Assembly: GCA_001002765.1 (NCBI GenBank)
Contig: LCMS01000004.1
Location: 31,158 to 68,774 of the forward strand
Origin: Candidatus Uhrbacteria bacterium GW2011_GWE2_46_68
GTDB taxonomy: Bacteria; Patescibacteriota; Patescibacteriia; UBA9934; GWF2-40-263
Direction of reading: 5' to 3'
DNA length: 37,617 bases
The notes beneath the pieces were generated by a model. The model was given only the letters and a program-made list of their open reading frames with translations. It was not told the origin of the DNA and did no database searches. The position numbers were made by a program, and so were the translations under genes. Positions 16,874 to 31,839 of this stretch are shown here, piece after piece (the first letter of the stretch is position 1; every line of letters begins with the position of its first letter).

Positions 16874-18568
16874 ATGAGGATGCTCAACTGCGACTCTGTC
16901 CGTGGGCTCCACTTCGACGAACGTCTCTCCATGTGCGGGGATTCCGGAAGCCCGGACTTCTCCGAGCTCGCGTGCGAAAACCTCGGCATCATGGAAGGTG
17001 ACGTGTTCGGGGAAAGCTCGATCCGTCGCCGCGCCCGCCGCGCGGGTCAGGTCGAGTTCATCCCGGTCGACGAGATCTCGGACGAGGACATCCTCGACCC
17101 GGACTTCTTCTCGTTTGACGACGAGGAAGAGGCGATCGAGGACATCAACGACGATTCCACCCCCTACGACTACGACGACGAGGAGGAAGAAGACTTGAGC
17201 TTCGCCGCCGCCATCACCGCCCCCAAGGTCGAGGTGTTCATCAACACCAACCCTGACACTGGTGCGGTCAGCGTGAACACCGAGGACGAGCCCATCGATA
17301 CCTTCGATGTTGACTCCCAGGGCGACTACGATTCCAGCTACGACGACCGGATGGAGTGCCTCGGCGACTACGACGACTGGACGGGTGGTGCCTACGACGA
17401 CAACTTCGATCTGGATGACGCCACGGACGAGTGCGGGGACATCGGTTCCAGCACCTTCCGCGAGGATCTGTTCCTCGATGAGGGTGACCCTGGCTACGAC
17501 TACGAGTACGATTCGTTCAGCCACCCGACCATGCCGGTCAACCCGAGCCGCAAGGATCGGATCCGTCAGCGTATGTGGAAGATGCGGGAGGAGGAGTCTT
17601 CCTTCGACCCCTTCGAGGAGATGCAAGACGAGATGGAGGAGGAAGACGTCAGGCGGTTCAAGAACCGCATGCACTCCGACCGCAGCGATGACCGCACAGA
17701 TGGTCGTGGTAGGAAGTACATCACCGGCAAGATGGTCTATCCCGAAGGGGAAAGGCCCGTTCGGCAAGCGCCTTTCAAGAGCGTCAAGCTCGCGCTCACC
17801 CTCGAGAGTGAGCGGGTCGTGCGTGCCGAGATGATCAAGGATTGGGCCGATGGCCGGAAAATCTTCATCAACCCGCATGGGTGGATGTACTGGTGCCGCC
17901 CAACCGTTGATCGGATCAACACCCTGTATGGTGAGACGATCGAGCGTATCCACTCATCCAGGCAGGGTGCGCGGCTCACGGGCGAGGAGTACAGGTTCTT
18001 CATGAGCCTTTCCCGTGGCGAGCGCAACCACTGCCTCCACCCCAAGTGCCAGTGGCGGGACATGTCGATCTGGCCGAACTTTGAGGGGGGAAAGGTAGTG
18101 AGCCGCTCGAATTCCTGGAAGCACCAGAGGCGGCAGACGCGGCAGTGGGAGAACCCCACCATGCGCCGCTGCGGCAACATGGAGGTCATCCAGACCACCC
18201 CCTCGGTGGAGATGGATACCTTCGATCGTGTCTTTTACGATCGTATTGCGGTTCTCGAGACCCGGATCGAAATCGAGGAGGCCAAGATGGATCCTGACAA
18301 CGACACGATCCGCACGATGAGGTCCGACCTTCGGAGCCTTATGTGGGAGATTGGCTGCTCTGGCGAGCGGTACGATGACATGAAGGAGATCTTCTGGCGC
18401 ATCCGCAACAATGGCCATATCCCCACGGACGTGCAGAGGCGGATGGTCGAGAAGTACGGTGACAGCGGACTTATTGATTTTCTCATGATCGCAGGTATCT
18501 CGCGTGACGATGCTTACGCGATGGAAGAGGATTTCAGAAACGAGTCCTCGCGTCGCATCGTGGCCTGA
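16874..18568 (+). CDS. GC-rich acidic orphan protein, unknown
   Basis: 564 residues with no recognised family. Residues 1-60 are mixed; about 60-215 are extremely rich in aspartate and glutamate with many tyrosines (for example PYDYDDEEEEDLSF) and should be disordered. From about 270 the protein becomes basic and globular, with FINPHGWMYWCRPT and NHCLHPKCQWRDM, then a helical end. It lacks a signal peptide and membrane segments. The coding DNA has strongly C/G-ending codons, unlike the neighbours on both sides. A canonical Shine-Dalgarno (AAGGAG) and strong promoter precede it. This suggests recent transfer, possibly from a phage or a high-GC host. The acid-then-basic layout could suit nucleic-acid mimicry or packaging, but that is speculation. 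Confidence 0.75.
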   Translation: MRMLNCDSVRGLHFDERLSMCGDSGSPDFSELACENLGIMEGDVFGESSIRRRARRAGQVEFIPVDEISDEDILDPDFFSFDDEEEAIEDINDDSTPYDYDDEEEEDLSFAAAITAPKVEVFINTNPDTGAVSVNTEDEPIDTFDVDSQGDYDSSYDDRMECLGDYDDWTGGAYDDNFDLDDATDECGDIGSSTFREDLFLDEGDPGYDYEYDSFSHPTMPVNPSRKDRIRQRMWKMREEESSFDPFEEMQDEMEEEDVRRFKNRMHSDRSDDRTDGRGRKYITGKMVYPEGERPVRQAPFKSVKLALTLESERVVRAEMIKDWADGRKIFINPHGWMYWCRPTVDRINTLYGETIERIHSSRQGARLTGEEYRFFMSLSRGERNHCLHPKCQWRDMSIWPNFEGGKVVSRSNSWKHQRRQTRQWENPTMRRCGNMEVIQTTPSVEMDTFDRVFYDRIAVLETRIEIEEAKMDPDNDTIRTMRSDLRSLMWEIGCSGERYDDMKEIFWRIRNNGHIPTDVQRRMVEKYGDSGLIDFLMIAGISRDDAYAMEEDFRNESSRRIVA

Positions 18569-18580
18569 TACGACCCCGCC

Positions 18581-18660
18581 GCCAGTCGGTACAACTGGCA
18601 ACGGACCCCGGGAAGGGTGTAGCGCTTAGGCGCTGCACCTCACTCCCGGGGTCGCTTTTG
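18581..18660 (+). terminator. Compound hairpin terminator of the GC-rich gene
   Basis: A short hairpin, GCCAGT/ACTGGC, is followed by a long one. The outer stem is GACCCCGGGA (18604-18613) with TCCCGGGGTC (18644-18653); the inner stem is GGTGTAGCGC with GCGCTGCACC around a TTAG loop. CGCTTTTGTTTT then follows. It is longer and more GC-rich than the other terminators in the window. Confidence 0.8.
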
Positions 18661-18680
18661 TTTTAAAGTGGACAGTTCCT

Positions 18681-18709
18681 TTGACGTATATGCCTTTTTT
18701 CGCTAGAAT
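18681..18709 (+). promoter_or_regulatory. Promoter of tRNA-Tyr
   Basis: TTGACG (18681-18686), 17-base spacer, TAGAAT (18704-18709), 23 bases ahead of the tRNA 5' end. Confidence 0.65.
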
Positions 18710-18732
18710 GCCGATGTGTTTTTTTGAAATAC

Positions 18733-18818
18733 GGGTAGGTACCGAAGCGGTCAAACGGGGCAGACTGTAAATCTGCTGGCTTACGCCTTCGGGGGTTCGA
18801 ATCCCTCCCTGCCCACCA
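18733..18818 (+). tRNA. tRNA-Tyr (GTA)
   Basis: Acceptor GGGTAGG pairs with CCTGCCC (one wobble). The anticodon loop centres on CTGTAAA (GTA). There is a long variable arm, a T-arm GGGTTCGAATCCC, discriminator A and an encoded CCA. It leads the tRNA-Tyr, tRNA-Thr, rpmG, tRNA-Trp cluster. Confidence 0.95.
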
Positions 18819-18979
18819 TCCTTCGCTCCTTCGGAGCTTCGGGTGGCAGACCACCCCCCTATTATTCAAGATACAAAAAAGGTTGGCCGTGCCACGCGAG
18901 AGGAGCAAAGGGCAAACACAGTTTGCAAGAAGATTTATGAGGAAGGGTTGCAAACTCTTTATTACAATGAAGATTTTCT

Positions 18980-19349: not shown

Positions 19350-19423
19350 AGGGGCGTCGTTCAATGGTAGGACGGAGGTCTCCAAAACCTCTGACATAGG
19401 TTCGATTCCTATCGCCCCTGCCA
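19350..19423 (+). tRNA. tRNA-Trp (CCA), integration target
   Basis: Acceptor AGGGGCG pairs with CGCCCCT. The anticodon loop is CTCCAAA (anticodon CCA), the T-arm TAGGTTCGATTCCTA, with discriminator G and an encoded CCA. A TATAAT box lies at 19331-19336. The last 15 bases are overlapped antisense by the 3' end of the serine recombinase gene. A 10-bp stem terminator, CAAAACTGCC/GGCAGTTTTG (19430-19457), follows, and this too lies inside the recombinase reading frame. Confidence 0.95.
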
Positions 19424-20977
19424 GCGTGACAAAACTGCCGCAGACGTGGCAGTTTTGTGTTTAAACATGCCGTTTCCATCCAGTTCTACCAGAGTTAGAT
19501 CCTTATAAAGTTGTGGGGAGTTTTGAGAGAACAATTTCCACACGGGTTCCATGTCTAATGAGAGTTTTTTGTTGAATATAACAAAGTTAGATCCTAGTGC
19601 ATGAACAATCTGTTTTTTGACGTCTGGTGACCCTGAATCAAAACGAGCTTTGGCCTCTTGGGCAAAGAGAAACGTTTTTTCCATTTGATCGATCCAATGA
19701 TCAGAAGTTTGTTCCTGATCATCAAGTTTGGCTTTTAGTCTATCCCGTTCTTCCAGAAGTTCTTGTTTCTTTTTCTTGTATTCTTCCTCGCTTATTAGCT
19801 CACCGATAAGGGCGTTCGTGAGGTTATCAATGCTTCGTTGAGTATTGTTGTATGTTTTTTGTAAAGATTCCCTAGTAGTGGAAAGCGTATCAATCTGGTT
19901 TTCATGAATATAGCGCAACCATCTTATGGCCCATTGAGCAAATTGTTCAGGGATAGTCATTTGAGACAACAAATCAACAATTTGTGCTTCCAAGTCCTTT
20001 TCATTTATTTGTGCTTGTTTGCAATCAATATTCTCTTTTTTCTTTGTGCAACGATAGTAAACATAATGTTTTCCCGACATCTTTAAAATACCGTAGGCGG
20101 TAAAGAGACACCCACACTCCTGACACCGGATAAGCCCCGTGTAAGCGAAATTTCGCGTTTGTGGGCGTGGCACAGGCTCACCAAGGCGTTTCTGCACCTT
20201 CCAAAACTCTTGCTCTGAAATCATGGCTTTATAAGCGCCTTGATATTCAGAAACCTGTCCATCGTGTTTACGTCGTATGCACCCATAATAAAATGGGTTT
20301 CGAAGCATGTGATACATACCACTTCGAGAGAGGGGACGACCACCTACTCGTTTCCGTGTAATCGTTTTAAACCCAAATTCTTTATTTAAGATATCTCGCG
20401 CTTCTTCTGTTGATTTTCCTTCTAAAATCAAGTCCCAGACTTTTCGAATAATAGGAAAGCGATCCGGATCAGGAATAATGGAATGATCATCCAGTTTGTT
20501 GAGATATCCAATAGGGGCCACCCCACACCATCCTCCTTGTTTCATTTTTTGTAAGTTTCCTCGTTTTACATTCTTTGAAAGATCGTCTGTGTATTTTTGT
20601 GCCATTCCAAATTCAAGATAAAGCATGATCTGATTCTCATTATCTGCACTGTACAACTGGGCAGGAGTTTGAATAACAAGGTTTTGTTCTTTCAAAGCCC
20701 AAATCACTTGGCCTCCATCAATCGGATTACGAGCTAAACGATCCAGTTTCCAACAAAGAACACCGTCAATTTTTTTATCTAAAACCTCCTGCATCATTTC
20801 AGCAAACTTTGGACGTCCAAGCTTACTGGCAGATTGAGCTTCTCTGTATGTTTTAACAACACGCAACCCTAGTCTTTGAGCAATATCTGTCATTTCATCC
20901 ACCTGTGCTTCAATCGAGAGTACTTGTCTATCTTCAGACTCCGAAGATTTTCGAGCGTAGATAACAAAATTTTTCAT
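19409..20977 (-). CDS. Large serine recombinase (integrase)
   Basis: 522 residues from the ATG at 20977; an upstream TTG at 20986 would add three residues. The N-terminal resolvase domain has the catalytic serine in IYARKSSESEDRQ (S11), then GRPKFAEMM and CWKLDRLARNPIDGG. The recombinase domain follows, then a zinc ribbon (CQECGCLF ... YRCTKKKENIDC) and a long coiled coil (about 370-450), the full layout of a large serine integrase. It cuts and exchanges attachment sites without needing long homology. Its last five codons and stop are antisense to the tRNA-Trp 3' end, and the preceding codons span the tRNA terminator, so it marks the left end of the element. Integration at a tRNA is less usual for serine than for tyrosine integrases. 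Confidence 0.93.
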   Translation of the reverse strand: MKNFVIYARKSSESEDRQVLSIEAQVDEMTDIAQRLGLRVVKTYREAQSASKLGRPKFAEMMQEVLDKKIDGVLCWKLDRLARNPIDGGQVIWALKEQNLVIQTPAQLYSADNENQIMLYLEFGMAQKYTDDLSKNVKRGNLQKMKQGGWCGVAPIGYLNKLDDHSIIPDPDRFPIIRKVWDLILEGKSTEEARDILNKEFGFKTITRKRVGGRPLSRSGMYHMLRNPFYYGCIRRKHDGQVSEYQGAYKAMISEQEFWKVQKRLGEPVPRPQTRNFAYTGLIRCQECGCLFTAYGILKMSGKHYVYYRCTKKKENIDCKQAQINEKDLEAQIVDLLSQMTIPEQFAQWAIRWLRYIHENQIDTLSTTRESLQKTYNNTQRSIDNLTNALIGELISEEEYKKKKQELLEERDRLKAKLDDQEQTSDHWIDQMEKTFLFAQEAKARFDSGSPDVKKQIVHALGSNFVIFNKKLSLDMEPVWKLFSQNSPQLYKDLTLVELDGNGMFKHKTATSAAVLSRWQGR

Positions 20978-20984
20978 ATAAACC

Positions 20985-21101
20985 AAATGGACGGCCCTGG
21001 CTACCCAACCGCGCTTATACCAAAGTATTCCGCTTGCTGGCAGGACCGCCCATTTAGAGCAGTAAACGAAAAAATAAAACTTTGGTTATCGGTTGGGTAG
21101 C
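20985..21101. promoter_or_regulatory. Interleaved inverted repeats ahead of the recombinase (structure R1)
   Basis: Two arm pairs alternate. A (20985-20997, AAATGGACGGCCC) pairs with A' (21043-21055, GGACCGCCCATTT; two mismatches). B (21000-21025, GCTACCCAACCG...TACCAAAG) pairs with B' (21080-21101, CTTTGGTTATCGGTTGGGTA plus GC). The order A-B-A'-B' is that of a pseudoknot. It fills most of the 138-base gap between the recombinase and the zinc-ribbon gene. It could be a leader RNA, an operator array or an attachment or origin site. Confidence 0.7.
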
Positions 21102-21115
21102 ACAATTATTCTACA

Positions 21116-21721
21116 TTACTCAGTAGCGTCAAGGCAACGAATTAATTTCTCAAGCTGCTGTAAAACTATTGGTTCGGATTCTTCGTATTGACTCAGTTTT
21201 TCTAACCATCTCCGATATCGTTTAGTTGGTTTTCCTTTCCAAAATTTTACCCGCATTTTGGAACATTCTTCCTTAAACTTCTCTTCTTTTTTCCATGCTT
21301 TTCCAAGAGCAGCAAACATTTTGGACGTGTATTCTTGTTGCGAATAGTAGGTAAGATCATAGCAGTGTCTACATTTGAATTTAACCCCTCCTGCGTAAAG
21401 GATTTCAACATGTCTTTCACACTCACACTTAAGCCAATATCTTTGACCACCAAAGTGACAAGGAGTGCTAATTATCAGGATATCTGAACTAACATAAGTA
21501 CGTTCAATCCAAGGATCTCGATAATAATAGGATATATTAAGAGTATGATTTAAGGCATCTACATAAATATCCGCTCTTCCCGTTTCTTCCCCACACGAGG
21601 ACCAGACAATCATTCCAGATTTCGATGTATTTTTGATCAAGTAACCTTCATTTTTGAGGAATTTAATATCAATTCTTTTAAGTGATTCACAAGTGTACTT
21701 TGACATATATCTCGAAATCAT
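21116..21721 (-). CDS. Zinc-ribbon protein of mobile elements, unknown function
   Basis: 201 residues. The middle has CHFGGQRYWLKCECERHVEILY followed by FKCRHCYDLTYYSQQEY, a two-knuckle zinc-binding pattern shared by a family of small proteins that I associate with mobile elements of proteobacteria and other bacteria. The C-terminal third is basic and helical, and could bind nucleic acid. Its ATG at 21721 overlaps the last base of the upstream stop codon (TAATG), so it is translationally coupled to the primase-helicase. An internal start at MSKYTCESL is an alternative. The role may be in excision or regulation, but no direct evidence is seen. Confidence 0.65.
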   Translation of the reverse strand: MISRYMSKYTCESLKRIDIKFLKNEGYLIKNTSKSGMIVWSSCGEETGRADIYVDALNHTLNISYYYRDPWIERTYVSSDILIISTPCHFGGQRYWLKCECERHVEILYAGGVKFKCRHCYDLTYYSQQEYTSKMFAALGKAWKKEEKFKEECSKMRVKFWKGKPTKRYRRWLEKLSQYEESEPIVLQQLEKLIRCLDATE

Positions 21722-23967
21722 TAGGACTTCATACCATCGATAGGGGGTACTTTAATATTTGATGCCTCAAAAGGGGGGATTCCATTAGAATATTTCCATC
21801 CTGGTCTTAAAGAACGCAGTTGCTCACACTCATCAGAACAGAACCAGTCGAATTCTTTTTTAATAGTTACAATCTTTTCTGGTTGTCCTGGTTCACTCGT
21901 ATTTACTTTTTCTATATCTACGATTTTCAGTACGCGGAGTGTTTCAATTTCTTTCAATGCTGTAGGATTGCTACAACTTATAGCTGTTTCAACCAGAGAA
22001 GTTGTGATCGTACCCCCATACTCCAAAAGTACATTTAAGAGTTTAATTCGATTGTATTGAGCTGAGTTAAATGTAACTTCAATTACAGGCCAAAGATCTT
22101 CATTACAGATTTGAGTGCGTTCACAAACGAGAGCGTGACCTCTGGCAAGATTATAAAGGAGTTGATTGATACGTATAGGTTTTTCTATAACGACATTTGT
22201 ATGATGATGTTCATCAACATTCCCTCCATCACTCCAAACATTCACGGTTCCACGCAAATGGGCGAGAAGATTTGCACATCTTGAAATCACTCGGCGGCAT
22301 TCTTCAGGATCATCTTCTTTGTTCCATTCGATTCCATCCTTGTAGTTCTGCCACAGATTTAGTACTAATTCACGCGTAATTTCCCTACAGGAACCTTCTT
22401 TCTTTTTGAAGTCTTTTTGAATAAGAAGATTAGCGAGTTCGTCTTCTGATTTATCACTCGAGTTCAGATTTAAGAAGAATAAACGTGATCCAAGGTTCCC
22501 CATGAATTTCCACACACGGGGAAGTATTGGAGTTGAGGCAGCAAGGAACATAAACGTGTAGTCTCCGAAATAACCACGAGACCCGTGCACCCCACTATCT
22601 GATTCATATCCCTCACCATCAAAGACACGTGTAAGTATTCCCAAGCTTTTTAAGAGGTTTTCTTGACGCTCAGCAAAGATAGGGGCTAAATCGCGGACTA
22701 TCAGCGTCTTGTGGCGTATACGAGGTAATAGATCTATTTTAGCGAGATCCTCCTTCTTTTTATTTGACGCATGAGATACAAATGAAGCAGGGGAGAAATG
22801 GTCGGTCATGTAAGCAAGTTCACGTAAACTAGAAAAAAAATTGAGTGTGATTGTTTTTCCAGAACTAGGAACATCAACGTAGACAAGTCCAAATGGATTG
22901 CGCACGTCCTTGATAAGTAATTGAGTAAAAACAGAAATACCTGCTTCAGCTGCAGCAAAACATTCGGGAAATAGATCCCCTACGATATTTCGCCATTCCT
23001 GGATTGATACTTTTTGTGTTGGTTTTGGGAGTTCTCTGTAGCGATTCCCGCTTTCTTCAATATCAGAAAAAATTTGTCCTGTTTTTAGCAGTTCCATGAA
23101 ATCGGCTAAGTTTTTTCCAAGCTTCAGAAAATAATCCGTAATATCACCGTGTTCACCAACTTCCTCTGGTAAAGAAACAATTTTTGCATGAGGAATAAGA
23201 GCCCCGACTTTTCTTGCACCTTCTCTGCCAGCATCATCAAGATCATAAGTGATATAAACTTCCTGAATTTTTTGGAAGAGCGAACCCCAATCATCATTAA
23301 AGGCTCCAGCTCCTCCAGTACTTGAAATGCTAGGAATATTGAGATTGCGTAGAAGTAAGGCGTCAAATTCCCCTTCAGTAATTACGATAAAAGTTGTGTC
23401 CTTTAGATTTTCAATCCCAAATAATGACATTTTAGCTCCTTTGGAGTTCGTATATTTTGGAATGTTTTGATCTGTAATAAAAGGGGATCTACGTTTTTTC
23501 ATGAACAAAGGATTTCTTTTTTCATCGTAAATTGGAATCATAATTTCTTTACCATTCCAACCTATATTTGCTTCCTTAATTACATTTTCAGAGAGACCCC
23601 TTTCTTTCAAAAGCCAGTTTTTAATTTCAGGAGGTATATTTAAGCTCCACTCTTCAATCATTTCAGCAAGTTGTTTTGATCCCGGTTTTCGTTCAATAGG
23701 TTGTTTCTGCTTTCGTTCAATAAATCCAAGTTCGGCAGGATCGTCTCCAAGATGTCTGGATAGAGTGACAAGATTCCCTTCCGCACCACAGCGTTTACAT
23801 TGGTAGAGTCCTGATTCTTCGTTAATGTAGAGATGACACTCAGTGAGTTTATTTCTTTTTTCATCGCCTCCACAGAAGAGACAAGAGGTTATAAGTTCGC
23901 CATTTCGACTTGCAAACTCAATGTTTTTTGAGTTAAGATACTGCTGAACAGTAAGTATGCTCCCCAT
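21721..23967 (-). CDS. Primase-helicase-like replication protein
   Basis: 748 residues. A CHC2-like zinc finger comes first (C29-x2-C32, C57-x2-C60), then a TOPRIM domain with ITEGEFDALLL (E198/E200) and YDLDDAGREG (D242, D244, D245). An ATPase domain begins with VDVPSSGKTIT near residue 365, where the P-loop lacks the usual first glycine or alanine. Probable Walker B and sensor segments follow (KTLIVRDLAP, FMFLAASTP), and a winged-helix end. This is the layout of self-replicating mobile elements that carry their own primer synthesis and unwinding. It heads an operon with the zinc-ribbon protein, with a 95-residue gene just upstream. It would allow replication of the excised form. Confidence 0.85.
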   Translation of the reverse strand: MGSILTVQQYLNSKNIEFASRNGELITSCLFCGGDEKRNKLTECHLYINEESGLYQCKRCGAEGNLVTLSRHLGDDPAELGFIERKQKQPIERKPGSKQLAEMIEEWSLNIPPEIKNWLLKERGLSENVIKEANIGWNGKEIMIPIYDEKRNPLFMKKRRSPFITDQNIPKYTNSKGAKMSLFGIENLKDTTFIVITEGEFDALLLRNLNIPSISSTGGAGAFNDDWGSLFQKIQEVYITYDLDDAGREGARKVGALIPHAKIVSLPEEVGEHGDITDYFLKLGKNLADFMELLKTGQIFSDIEESGNRYRELPKPTQKVSIQEWRNIVGDLFPECFAAAEAGISVFTQLLIKDVRNPFGLVYVDVPSSGKTITLNFFSSLRELAYMTDHFSPASFVSHASNKKKEDLAKIDLLPRIRHKTLIVRDLAPIFAERQENLLKSLGILTRVFDGEGYESDSGVHGSRGYFGDYTFMFLAASTPILPRVWKFMGNLGSRLFFLNLNSSDKSEDELANLLIQKDFKKKEGSCREITRELVLNLWQNYKDGIEWNKEDDPEECRRVISRCANLLAHLRGTVNVWSDGGNVDEHHHTNVVIEKPIRINQLLYNLARGHALVCERTQICNEDLWPVIEVTFNSAQYNRIKLLNVLLEYGGTITTSLVETAISCSNPTALKEIETLRVLKIVDIEKVNTSEPGQPEKIVTIKKEFDWFCSDECEQLRSLRPGWKYSNGIPPFEASNIKVPPIDGMKS

Positions 23968-29380: not shown

Positions 29381-30022
29381 TTACTGAACCACCACGTCGA
29401 ATGGACCGACGAAATCGAACGAGACTGGCTCTACTTCGATTTGGTTGATCAGTTCCGTCGTCGTCACCTCACAGTCCCACTCACCTGTGACGTAGTTGTT
29501 CAGACGTGAGTACCCGGTCAGATCGCTCGGTGTGGCACCCTCTTGGACTCTGTAGTGCCAACCCTCATGCCCACGCAGAAACGTGTGATCTAGAATGTTC
29601 TCAATGTAGGCTTGACCAGTGCAGTCCGTAGTCGTGAAGTTGATGTTCTCGTTTTGATCAACAACTTTCGGAGGGAGTCGACTGACGTAAAAGAACAGCT
29701 CAATGTCCGTATTGAAGACGAGGAAGTTTGAACCACCTGGGCTTGAGTATGCGGCTGACGTTACATCGACGATGTTGCCGATGTATGCGCCATCCCCATC
29801 CACGATCGCCAGGCTGAAGCCAGGCACACCTAGGTTTCCTTGCGGACCTTCGACTCCCTGTGATCCTTGATCACCCTGCGGCCCTTGGATCCCCTGAGGC
29901 CCAGGATCACCTTGTGGACCCGATGGACCTTCAGGGCCCTCCAGACCTTGCTCACAGACACATGGCTCAGGTTGGCAGCCAACGCAGGCCAGGAGAAGAA
30001 CTGTCAGAGTCAGATGCTTCAC
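29381..30022 (-). CDS. Collagen-like lipoprotein
   Basis: 213 residues. The GTG start at 30022 is supported by a canonical GGAGGTG four bases upstream. The signal peptide [15 protein letters not shown] ends in a lipobox (CVGC), so it should be lipid-anchored outside the membrane. Residues about 25-67 are 14 Gly-X-Y triplets ([19 protein letters not shown] and so on), able to form a collagen triple helix and hence a trimer. A C-terminal globular domain of about 140 residues with cysteines ([13 protein letters not shown]) follows. Codons are more GC-rich than the flanking genes. It may be a surface stalk or adhesin; for CPR bacteria, host attachment is a possible role, by inference only. Confidence 0.8.
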
Positions 30023-30091: not shown

Positions 30092-30241
30092 AACCAACCC
30101 ACTAAATCAGTTTTCAAAACATGTAAAAATTTGTCGGACGATCTTATAAAAATCAATCGTTTGTAGATTCTTGGGTGGGGGGGCTAAGATGTAAGTTCAA
30201 ACACACACCAAAGTTCTAACCTCCCTCGCCAGCCCCTGCCA
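30092..30241. repeat. 150-bp direct repeat, copy 2, ending in the tRNA-Trp 3' decamer
   Basis: Companion of 28419-28569, with the same exact blocks at 30110-30121 and 30155-30169. Its last ten bases, GCCCCTGCCA, equal the tRNA-Trp 3' end (19414-19423). GGGGGCT (30179-30185) can pair with AGCCCCT (30231-30237), like an acceptor stem before GCCA, but no D-arm, anticodon arm or T-arm is present. Proposed as attR or a remnant of it. Confidence 0.7.
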
Positions 30242-30276
30242 AAATTCCTTCGCTAAATGAGCGAAGGAATTTTTTG
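30241..30276. terminator. Bidirectional terminator at the right element boundary
   Basis: A perfect 14-bp stem, AAAATTCCTTCGCT (30241-30254) with AGCGAAGGAATTTT (30260-30273), flanked by A and T runs. It serves the convergent minus-strand gene at 30285 and anything transcribed through repeat copy 2. Confidence 0.85.
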
Positions 30277-30773: not shown

Positions 30774-30881
30774 ACGAAATAATTCTAGCAGACAAAGACG
30801 GTTTCATCTAACACAACGGTTCCGACATCCTTGCATAGCTCATGTCAGCTTTTTTGTGAAGCGACGGAAGGGCTGAATGTC

Positions 30882-30890
30882 TGGTAGAAT
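30882..30890 (+). promoter_or_regulatory. Extended -10 promoter of the Cys-repeat protein gene
   Basis: TGGTAGAAT: TG one base before TAGAAT, 46 bases ahead of the ATG at 30937. An open frame from 30877 begins inside this box, which argues for the later start. Confidence 0.4.
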
Positions 30891-30936
30891 AGTGACATCG
30901 CATATCCATCACAACATAAAACGAAAAACTATTTTT

Positions 30937-31839
30937 ATGCAATCAAAAACATTTTTTTTCGGCATCGTAGGAGGTGTGATTCTTTCTCTGTTTGGTTTCG
31001 GACTTTTTACTGTATGGACGGCAGAAAAAGAACAAGCATCTTTTTCTGACGCTGTCCCCACTGCCGTTATTTCCACCACCACAGAATCCATCACACCCGC
31101 ATCAGAACCTATAGTCAGAGCCTCTGTGTTACTACCCGAAGACCCTTGGCGTGAAGTGACACAAGGACAGGTGCTTTCCAATGGGAACGTCTGGCTTCTT
31201 ACCCGTCCTATTTTCGAGAAAGGTGACCCCCCGGTAGTAAATCCCTGTGCGGAGCAAAATATTTGTCCTATCCAAAGCTGGATGGTGAATCTCAAAGAAG
31301 GTGTTGCTCATCTTTCTTCAGAACAAAACAGTTATGGCTCTTCCGCAAATGTCTCGGTGTATGAACCAAACATGCTTGGAGAAAAAACATTACACGTCGC
31401 TTGGATCATCTATGTCGGTTTTTCACATACGACACGCATGGATAGAATCGAGCAAATCAACATGGAAGATGGCACGATTTTGATGACAATCGGACCAACA
31501 GATTTGGATAAAAACAAGTCAGATCTTCTGGGTGCAGCACAATATAATTGTGAACTAAGCGGCGGAAGCTTTGCCAGTGAAACATGTGTCTGTCCAAATA
31601 CAGATTTTGTAACAGGAGAATATTTGTTTGATGGCAAGACGGGATATTGCATTTCCGAAGCGGGCGGTCCTATGGGTGATGCATTTTTTGCTTCCATCGG
31701 TCTTCCTTACGGTGATTATGGCTATTGGAGAAACACTATCTTCGGTTTGTGTGAACAAAGCGGCGGATCTGTCTCCGGCGCATCCTGCCAATGTCCGAAT
31801 GAGATGATCTATAATAAAGAAACAGGGGCGTGTGAGTAA
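30937..31839 (+). CDS. Exported protein with two Cys-rich repeats
   Basis: 300 residues from the ATG at 30937, which directly begins a signal anchor (SKTFFFGIVGGVILSLFGFG). A threonine/serine-rich linker follows, then a beta-rich domain with CAEQNICPIQSW. The C-terminal third carries the same cysteine module twice: CELSGGSFASETCVCPN ... TGYC and CEQSGGSVSGASCQCPN ... TGACE, probably each held by disulphides. Similar modules occur in exported CPR proteins, as far as I recall. It should be anchored to the cytoplasmic membrane and face outward. It precedes a lipoprotein gene by 18 bases on the same strand. Confidence 0.65.
   Translation: MQSKTFFFGIVGGVILSLFGFGLFTVWTAEKEQASFSDAVPTAVISTTTESITPASEPIVRASVLLPEDPWREVTQGQVLSNGNVWLLTRPIFEKGDPPVVNPCAEQNICPIQSWMVNLKEGVAHLSSEQNSYGSSANVSVYEPNMLGEKTLHVAWIIYVGFSHTTRMDRIEQINMEDGTILMTIGPTDLDKNKSDLLGAAQYNCELSGGSFASETCVCPNTDFVTGEYLFDGKTGYCISEAGGPMGDAFFASIGLPYGDYGYWRNTIFGLCEQSGGSVSGASCQCPNEMIYNKETGACE

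Follow-up and report, generated by a model that had tools for sequence, protein, structure and literature searches.

Some integrases lose their intact gene upon integration. The SSV-type suicidal integrases (SSV1, pTN3, pT26-2) carry attP within the integrase gene and usually target a tRNA gene, and their integration breaks the integrase gene, which is intact in the free form only (PMC8371274). The intact gene has been proposed to serve as its own directionality factor, and self-disrupting recombinases have been stated to be exclusive to archaea (PMC8371274). Mycobacteriophages such as BPs show integration-dependent immunity, in which attP likewise lies in a coding gene, and insertion at a tRNA gene swaps the C-terminal tail of the product and supplies a new stop codon (PMC9262239). 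Serine integrases have been described at other kinds of site: those of phages and IMEs insert within protein-coding genes, tRNA genes are not among the targets of mycobacteriophage serine integrases (PMC9262239), and serine-recombinase IMEs insert within genes, disrupting the target (PMC5704250).

Here, we analyzed a 37,617-nt stretch of a Candidatus Uhrbacteria genome (hereafter, the window), in which the gene of a large serine recombinase ends inside a tRNA-Trp gene. The best explanation of the locus is that the window carries a 10.8-kb integrative element at the 3′ end of tRNA-Trp, inserted by its own recombinase.

Recombinase gene, tRNA-Trp and the element ends

The tRNA-Trp gene (19350–19423, + strand; ARAGORN, Rfam) encodes its CCA, has a fully paired acceptor stem and is the host gene serving as attachment site, with its 3′ end as attL. 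On the opposite strand, the large serine recombinase (LSR) gene (19409–20986, − strand) is an intact open reading frame of 525 amino acids in its integrated, truncated form, and its product ends in LSRWQGR. Resolvase, Recombinase and zinc-ribbon domains (PF00239, PF07508, PF13408) score above the Pfam cut-off, and the best PHROG match is an integrase family (phrog_95, 8e-84). The catalytic YARKSS motif and DRLARNP are kept in alignment A2, with the catalytic serine and arginines present, and the coiled-coil region is modeled as long helices at residues 344–391 and 397–448. By every feature tested, and by its homologues, the enzyme is a large serine recombinase.

An earlier note, made from the letters of this DNA, had counted the last five codons and the stop of this gene inside tRNA-Trp; the overlap is real and spans 15 nt, but it holds four sense codons (W, Q, G, R) and the stop. 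That the preceding codons cross a terminator hairpin, as the note had also claimed, is confirmed by an element-supplied hairpin 3′ of the tRNA (19429–19458, + strand), which has a 13-bp stem (−20.6 kcal/mol, z −4.7, 0/200 shuffles as stable) and also encodes the recombinase residues just before W. Equivalent hairpins occur in many homologues, and this one acts as the tRNA-Trp terminator on the strand opposite the recombinase.

At the other end of the element, the right copy of the 10-mer GCCCCTGCCA (30232–30241) is attR; the 10-mer has just two copies in the 37.6-kb window, the other at 19414. Because chance 9–10-mers occur in many elements, a boundary was not called from a ten-base match alone. 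The right boundary at 30232–30241 is common to four related tRNA-Trp elements: the same right end lies beside the same core, at the same position, in L083 (G011), L075 (G048) and L076 (G089). The recombinases of these three share 72%, 48% and 45% identity, respectively, with that of the window. This shared right end, together with tRNA overlap in 55 of 67 homologues, is more than chance. Next to attR lies the displaced original tRNA-Trp terminator (30242–30272, + strand; −17.2 kcal/mol, z −6.1), and terminators of this kind directly follow tRNA-Trp in element-free relatives (G019, G003, G021, G031 and others). The host gene that follows the empty site (30877–31839, + strand) has homologues in G031, G052, G062 and G066, located on the tRNA-Trp contig, downstream of the tRNA and with no recombinase between. 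Element-free tRNA-Trp sites in relatives are therefore followed by the terminator alone, in some by the same downstream gene, and the recombinase frame is absent there.

Joining the two ends at the 10-mer in silico gives exactly what the earlier note had predicted, with the final R and stop giving way to eleven residues, LAREVRTLVCV, before a TGA. These are encoded by the element right end (30197–30232, − strand), so that at the predicted attP joint WQGLAREVRTLVCV and its stop replace WQGR and its stop. The proposal that the integrated and excised enzymes differ at their C-terminus is thus supported by the element-free sites and by a right boundary that holds across related elements.

Acceptor-stem pairing was used to place the crossover. 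Across 23 right ends from 18 elements, attL is fully paired, except for a tRNA-Met case with the first position unpaired, and in attR copies the pairing is broken from position 7 or beyond; in L140 and L142, the final CA of CCA is absent from attR and present in the attL tRNA. These features point to exchange at positions 3–6 from the tRNA end, which in the window puts the probable crossover zone at CTGC around the discriminator base (19418–19421). The core shared by attL and attR is ~4–10 nt, a short crossover identity as in serine integrases. A crossover ~8–9 nt from the tRNA end, considered from inverted arm motifs, contradicts the acceptor pairing and was dropped in its favor. By this reading of the pairing, the element provides at least the last part of CCA and the new terminator, and the remaining tRNA comes from the host. 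As a separate observation, the L140 and L142 attR sites suggest that CCA is contributed by the element where the host tRNA gene had none.

Other observations concern tRNA-Trp loci in related genomes. In G002, identical copies of tRNA-Trp stand at or close to the ends of two contigs (C1 and C9), a pattern that would arise from a sampled population holding occupied as well as empty sites. A palindrome, GCCAGGCAACTGCCTGGCGTGCC, follows tRNA-Trp in L002/L029 (G006) and L054 (G017), and in G006 ~1.25 kb separates tRNA-Trp from the displaced terminator, possibly a small mobile unit.

Within the element, the gene adjoining the recombinase (21116–21721, − strand) is conserved in related elements (34–61% identical in L075, L083 and L138), and it adjoins the gene of the element DNA primase (21721–23967, − strand; phrog_47, 4e-35; Pfam Toprim_2; 56–77% identical in related elements). 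A collagen-like repeat protein (Pfam PF01391) is encoded near the right end (29381–30022, − strand). Most element genes received no function from PHROGs or Pfam, and no known RDF, the separate protein that sets directionality in serine integrases, was recognized in the window element, RDFs not being recognizable from sequence.

Homologous loci and the tail encoded at the far end

The search for recombinase homologues covered the class and the phylum, with up to 400 genomes for each. A tRNA lies at the recombinase 3′ end in 55 of 67 patescibacterial homologous loci, and in every one of these 55 the recombinase frame ends inside or runs through the tRNA. The target tRNAs cover 14 amino-acid types (Trp, Asn, Ser, His, Gln, Asp, Leu, Ala, Arg, Met, Val, Lys, Glu and Cys). 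CCA is read in one same frame, as TGG (W), in 47/55 tRNA-adjacent loci; the overlap varies from 11 to 142 nt and the sequence of the integrated tails varies with the tRNA. Two further loci, at first sight without a tRNA (L077, 12985–13300; L080, 6724–6961), carry a group I intron directly before a tRNA 3′ half at the recombinase end and are read as having introns in what appear to be the target tRNA-Asn genes, the element still ending at the tRNA 3′ end. Some of the homologues are fragments and the contigs are drafts. A single-sequence search for close relatives in genome and viral contigs gave one useful locus, the named close relative being a Patescibacteria MAG; phage and plasmid collections held relatives just 22–29% identical, none of them informative.

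We searched the far ends, at the expected place, for in-frame continuations after the tRNA-like core. Eighteen elements (23 sites) encode a conserved C-terminal tail in frame at this place, with the consensus W..IV.DVRT..Q..EYIYIPDL. Examples include WLRVVNSVRTIIQQQNEYIYIPDL (L163) and WLRVVRNIRTIIQRQTEYIYIPDL (L153) in Asn elements, WRNIVNDVRTIIQQEQEYIYIPDL (L167, Ser), WGRIVRDVRMIIQQQDEYIYIPDF (L079, His), WLSIVDDVRTAMKEDFYIPN (L146, Met) and WYRVVDDVGTAIRQFDGYIHIPQL (L141, Leu). The tail codons belong to the recombinase reading frame only when attP is rejoined, in a circle or in tandem.

Five well-aligned tails (codons 4–24) give a pN/pS of 0.23. The other two forward frames of the same tails give 1.1–1.4 and the reverse frames 0.37–2.1, the lowest with stops, and alignment-column shuffles average 0.80, with 0/2000 reaching the observed value. 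In the window, the tail is 32/36 nt identical to that of L083 through the stop codon and then 10/36, the chance level. Selection on the tail as protein, which the earlier note had missed, is thus well supported by these comparisons for the group with the YIYIPDL motif and plausible for the window’s own subgroup, in which the tail is short and the relatives few. Since the tail codons appear to be selected and are readable only when attP is joined, the joined state is probably expressed and matters, and the excised (or tandem) enzyme would be the form that selection maintains, with integration as the truncating step. Integration, as read from the joined ends, removes the selected tail and puts tRNA-antisense codons in its place.

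We regard the anatomy and the tail swap as secure, with very little doubt. The element ends, the restored tRNA, the swap, the protein-level constraint on the tail and the generality of the arrangement are all carried by the sequence comparisons. The best explanation, to which we give a probability of about 60%, is that the tail swap, which results from attP lying inside the gene, acts as a functional switch of the enzyme.

Tail swapping could also be inconsequential: in a compact element the gene would simply run into attP, the tail would be made in the circle and both forms would work equally. The integrated tails are free in sequence and in length, so the enzyme evidently tolerates many ends, as this explanation expects; a tail with no role should not, however, show a pN/pS of 0.20 or a similarity that stops at its stop codon, and retention of the CCA frame in most tRNA-adjacent loci also speaks against it. 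We consider it unlikely.

The right end might alternatively be kept as DNA, as the recombinase-binding arm of attP, with its coding capacity incidental. The 9-mer GTTAGAACT looks like a recombinase-binding motif: most right ends preserve its third positions, and the left arms contain, in inverted orientation, a similar TGTnnGAAC-like stretch. DNA-level constraint on attP therefore contributes to tail conservation, but the pN/pS remains low (0.20) without the three GTTAGAACT codons, and the conserved YIYIPDL part lies at least 50 nt from the core, with third positions the most variable (34/12/65 differences by codon position). As a full account, DNA constraint is improbable overall, and for the YIYIPDL group it is already refuted in large part.

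Tandem units and structure models

Among the 67 loci, only L161 has a contiguous, tail-bearing recombinase gene, which is part of a tandem array beside a tandem att site and not of a free circle. The gene is contiguous with its tail because a 0.7-kb unit separates the recombinase from tRNA-His, and its natural C-terminus is LTHWGRIVCDVRTEMILQV. This unit (18149–18832, ~0.7 kb) has one open reading frame, ParB-like by eye only, and gives the recombinase back its tail. In L150 (G199:C1, 8217–16314), six tandem att right arms lie downstream of tRNA-His, delimiting units of ~0.7–3 kb, mostly with one main open reading frame each and with a terminator at each start; the whole resembles an integron-like array of cassettes based on a serine recombinase. 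Extra right-end copies in L076 (at 16316 and 19064) and L146 (8643–9035) suggest tandem or nested insertions. A viral contig (L182/L191), with an end containing DDVRT, was considered as a free form and rejected: its GTTCGAAC is tRNA T-loop-like, end repeats are absent, and its tail and the core fail to align.

AlphaFold models L161 with its tail as one C-terminal helix (residues 521–548) at a confident pLDDT of about 78–84, and the integrated form of the window enzyme at 40–47 across its C-terminal 22 residues, a comparison between different proteins with tail-bearing rows scarce in the alignment. Among solved structures, the L161 model best matches complexes of serine integrase with RDF and of integrase with attL.

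The swap might control protein stability and not catalysis, one of the two ends being a degradation signal as in mycobacteriophage integration-dependent immunity. The hydrophobic end of the window’s excised tail (LVCV) and the mycobacteriophage precedent (PMC9262239) fit this, but most tails have varied, non-ssrA-like ends and AlphaFold suggests a structured helix, so that we hold it to be a little less probable still than DNA constraint. It is very improbable that these are ordinary defective islands with a dead integrated enzyme, given that, despite the draft contigs and some fragmentary homologues, most homologues have intact catalytic motifs and full frames, the tRNA targets are many, and the distribution is sporadic, the same site in relatives being free of the element.

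Proposed mechanism and comparison with known systems

The mechanism that we propose for the functional switch starts from an attP that overlaps the recombinase gene at its 3′ end. In the circle, the reading frame would continue across attP into the other end of the element, giving an enzyme with the conserved tail, presumably the integration-competent form. Recombination with a tRNA 3′ end restores the tRNA, brings in a new terminator and separates the gene from its last codons; the integrated copy thus encodes an enzyme ending in tRNA-antisense residues, probably impaired or altered. Integration itself would switch the enzyme and stabilize the insertion until tail-bearing enzyme came from elsewhere, either from another element or from a tandem unit restoring the tail. 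Insertion would in this way limit itself, on the same logic as has been proposed for the archaeal suicidal integrases (PMC8371274). The tail swap may thus be a built-in one-way switch. A further, tentative possibility is that throughout this patescibacterial serine recombinase family integration is a directionality switch that needs no RDF: the tail-bearing enzyme would integrate and then be inactivated or converted, and small att-bounded units captured beside the tRNA could re-arm the resident recombinase. The idea amounts to a testable, simple model for a one-way serine integrase without an accessory protein, and is relevant to integrase tools.

The mobile elements of this phylum are little studied. 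The conserved tail and the tRNA 3′ end together provide a sequence rule for locating exact element ends, and the overlap explains proteins with DSNPRP-like C-termini, which are tRNA T-arm antisense.

With the large serine integrases (phiC31, Bxb1, SP-beta, TP901-1, A118), the window family shares domain architecture and fold, but it inserts at tRNA 3′ ends, and in the open-access literature we found no example of a serine integrase whose attP encodes its own C-terminus. Phage P22/L (int-attP-thrW) is similar in that int adjoins attP and the tRNA is rebuilt upon integration; its integrase is, however, a tyrosine enzyme, attP lies downstream of int, and a C-terminal swap is not described (PMC8022706). 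The best analogues are the suicidal tyrosine integrases of archaea and the integration-dependent immunity of mycobacteriophages. In BPs-type immunity, it is the repressor gene that switches, integration is carried out by a tyrosine enzyme and the tail serves as a degradation tag of ssrA-like type (PMC9262239), whereas here the recombinase changes, not a repressor, and the tails have no ssrA-like LAA end. SSV-type integrases, like the window family, have attP within the integrase gene and usually a tRNA target, but they are archaeal tyrosine enzymes (Phage_integr_3) divided into two large gene parts, with the catalytic part separated. The window enzyme has serine recombinase domains instead, and its family is bacterial, keeps all known domains and loses just a 10–35-residue tail. 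The family contradicts both the view that self-disruption is restricted to archaeal tyrosine integrases and the view that phage serine integrases avoid tRNA genes. The window enzyme would work like a suicidal integrase, yet it stands outside that family, being a bacterial serine recombinase that loses only its tail.
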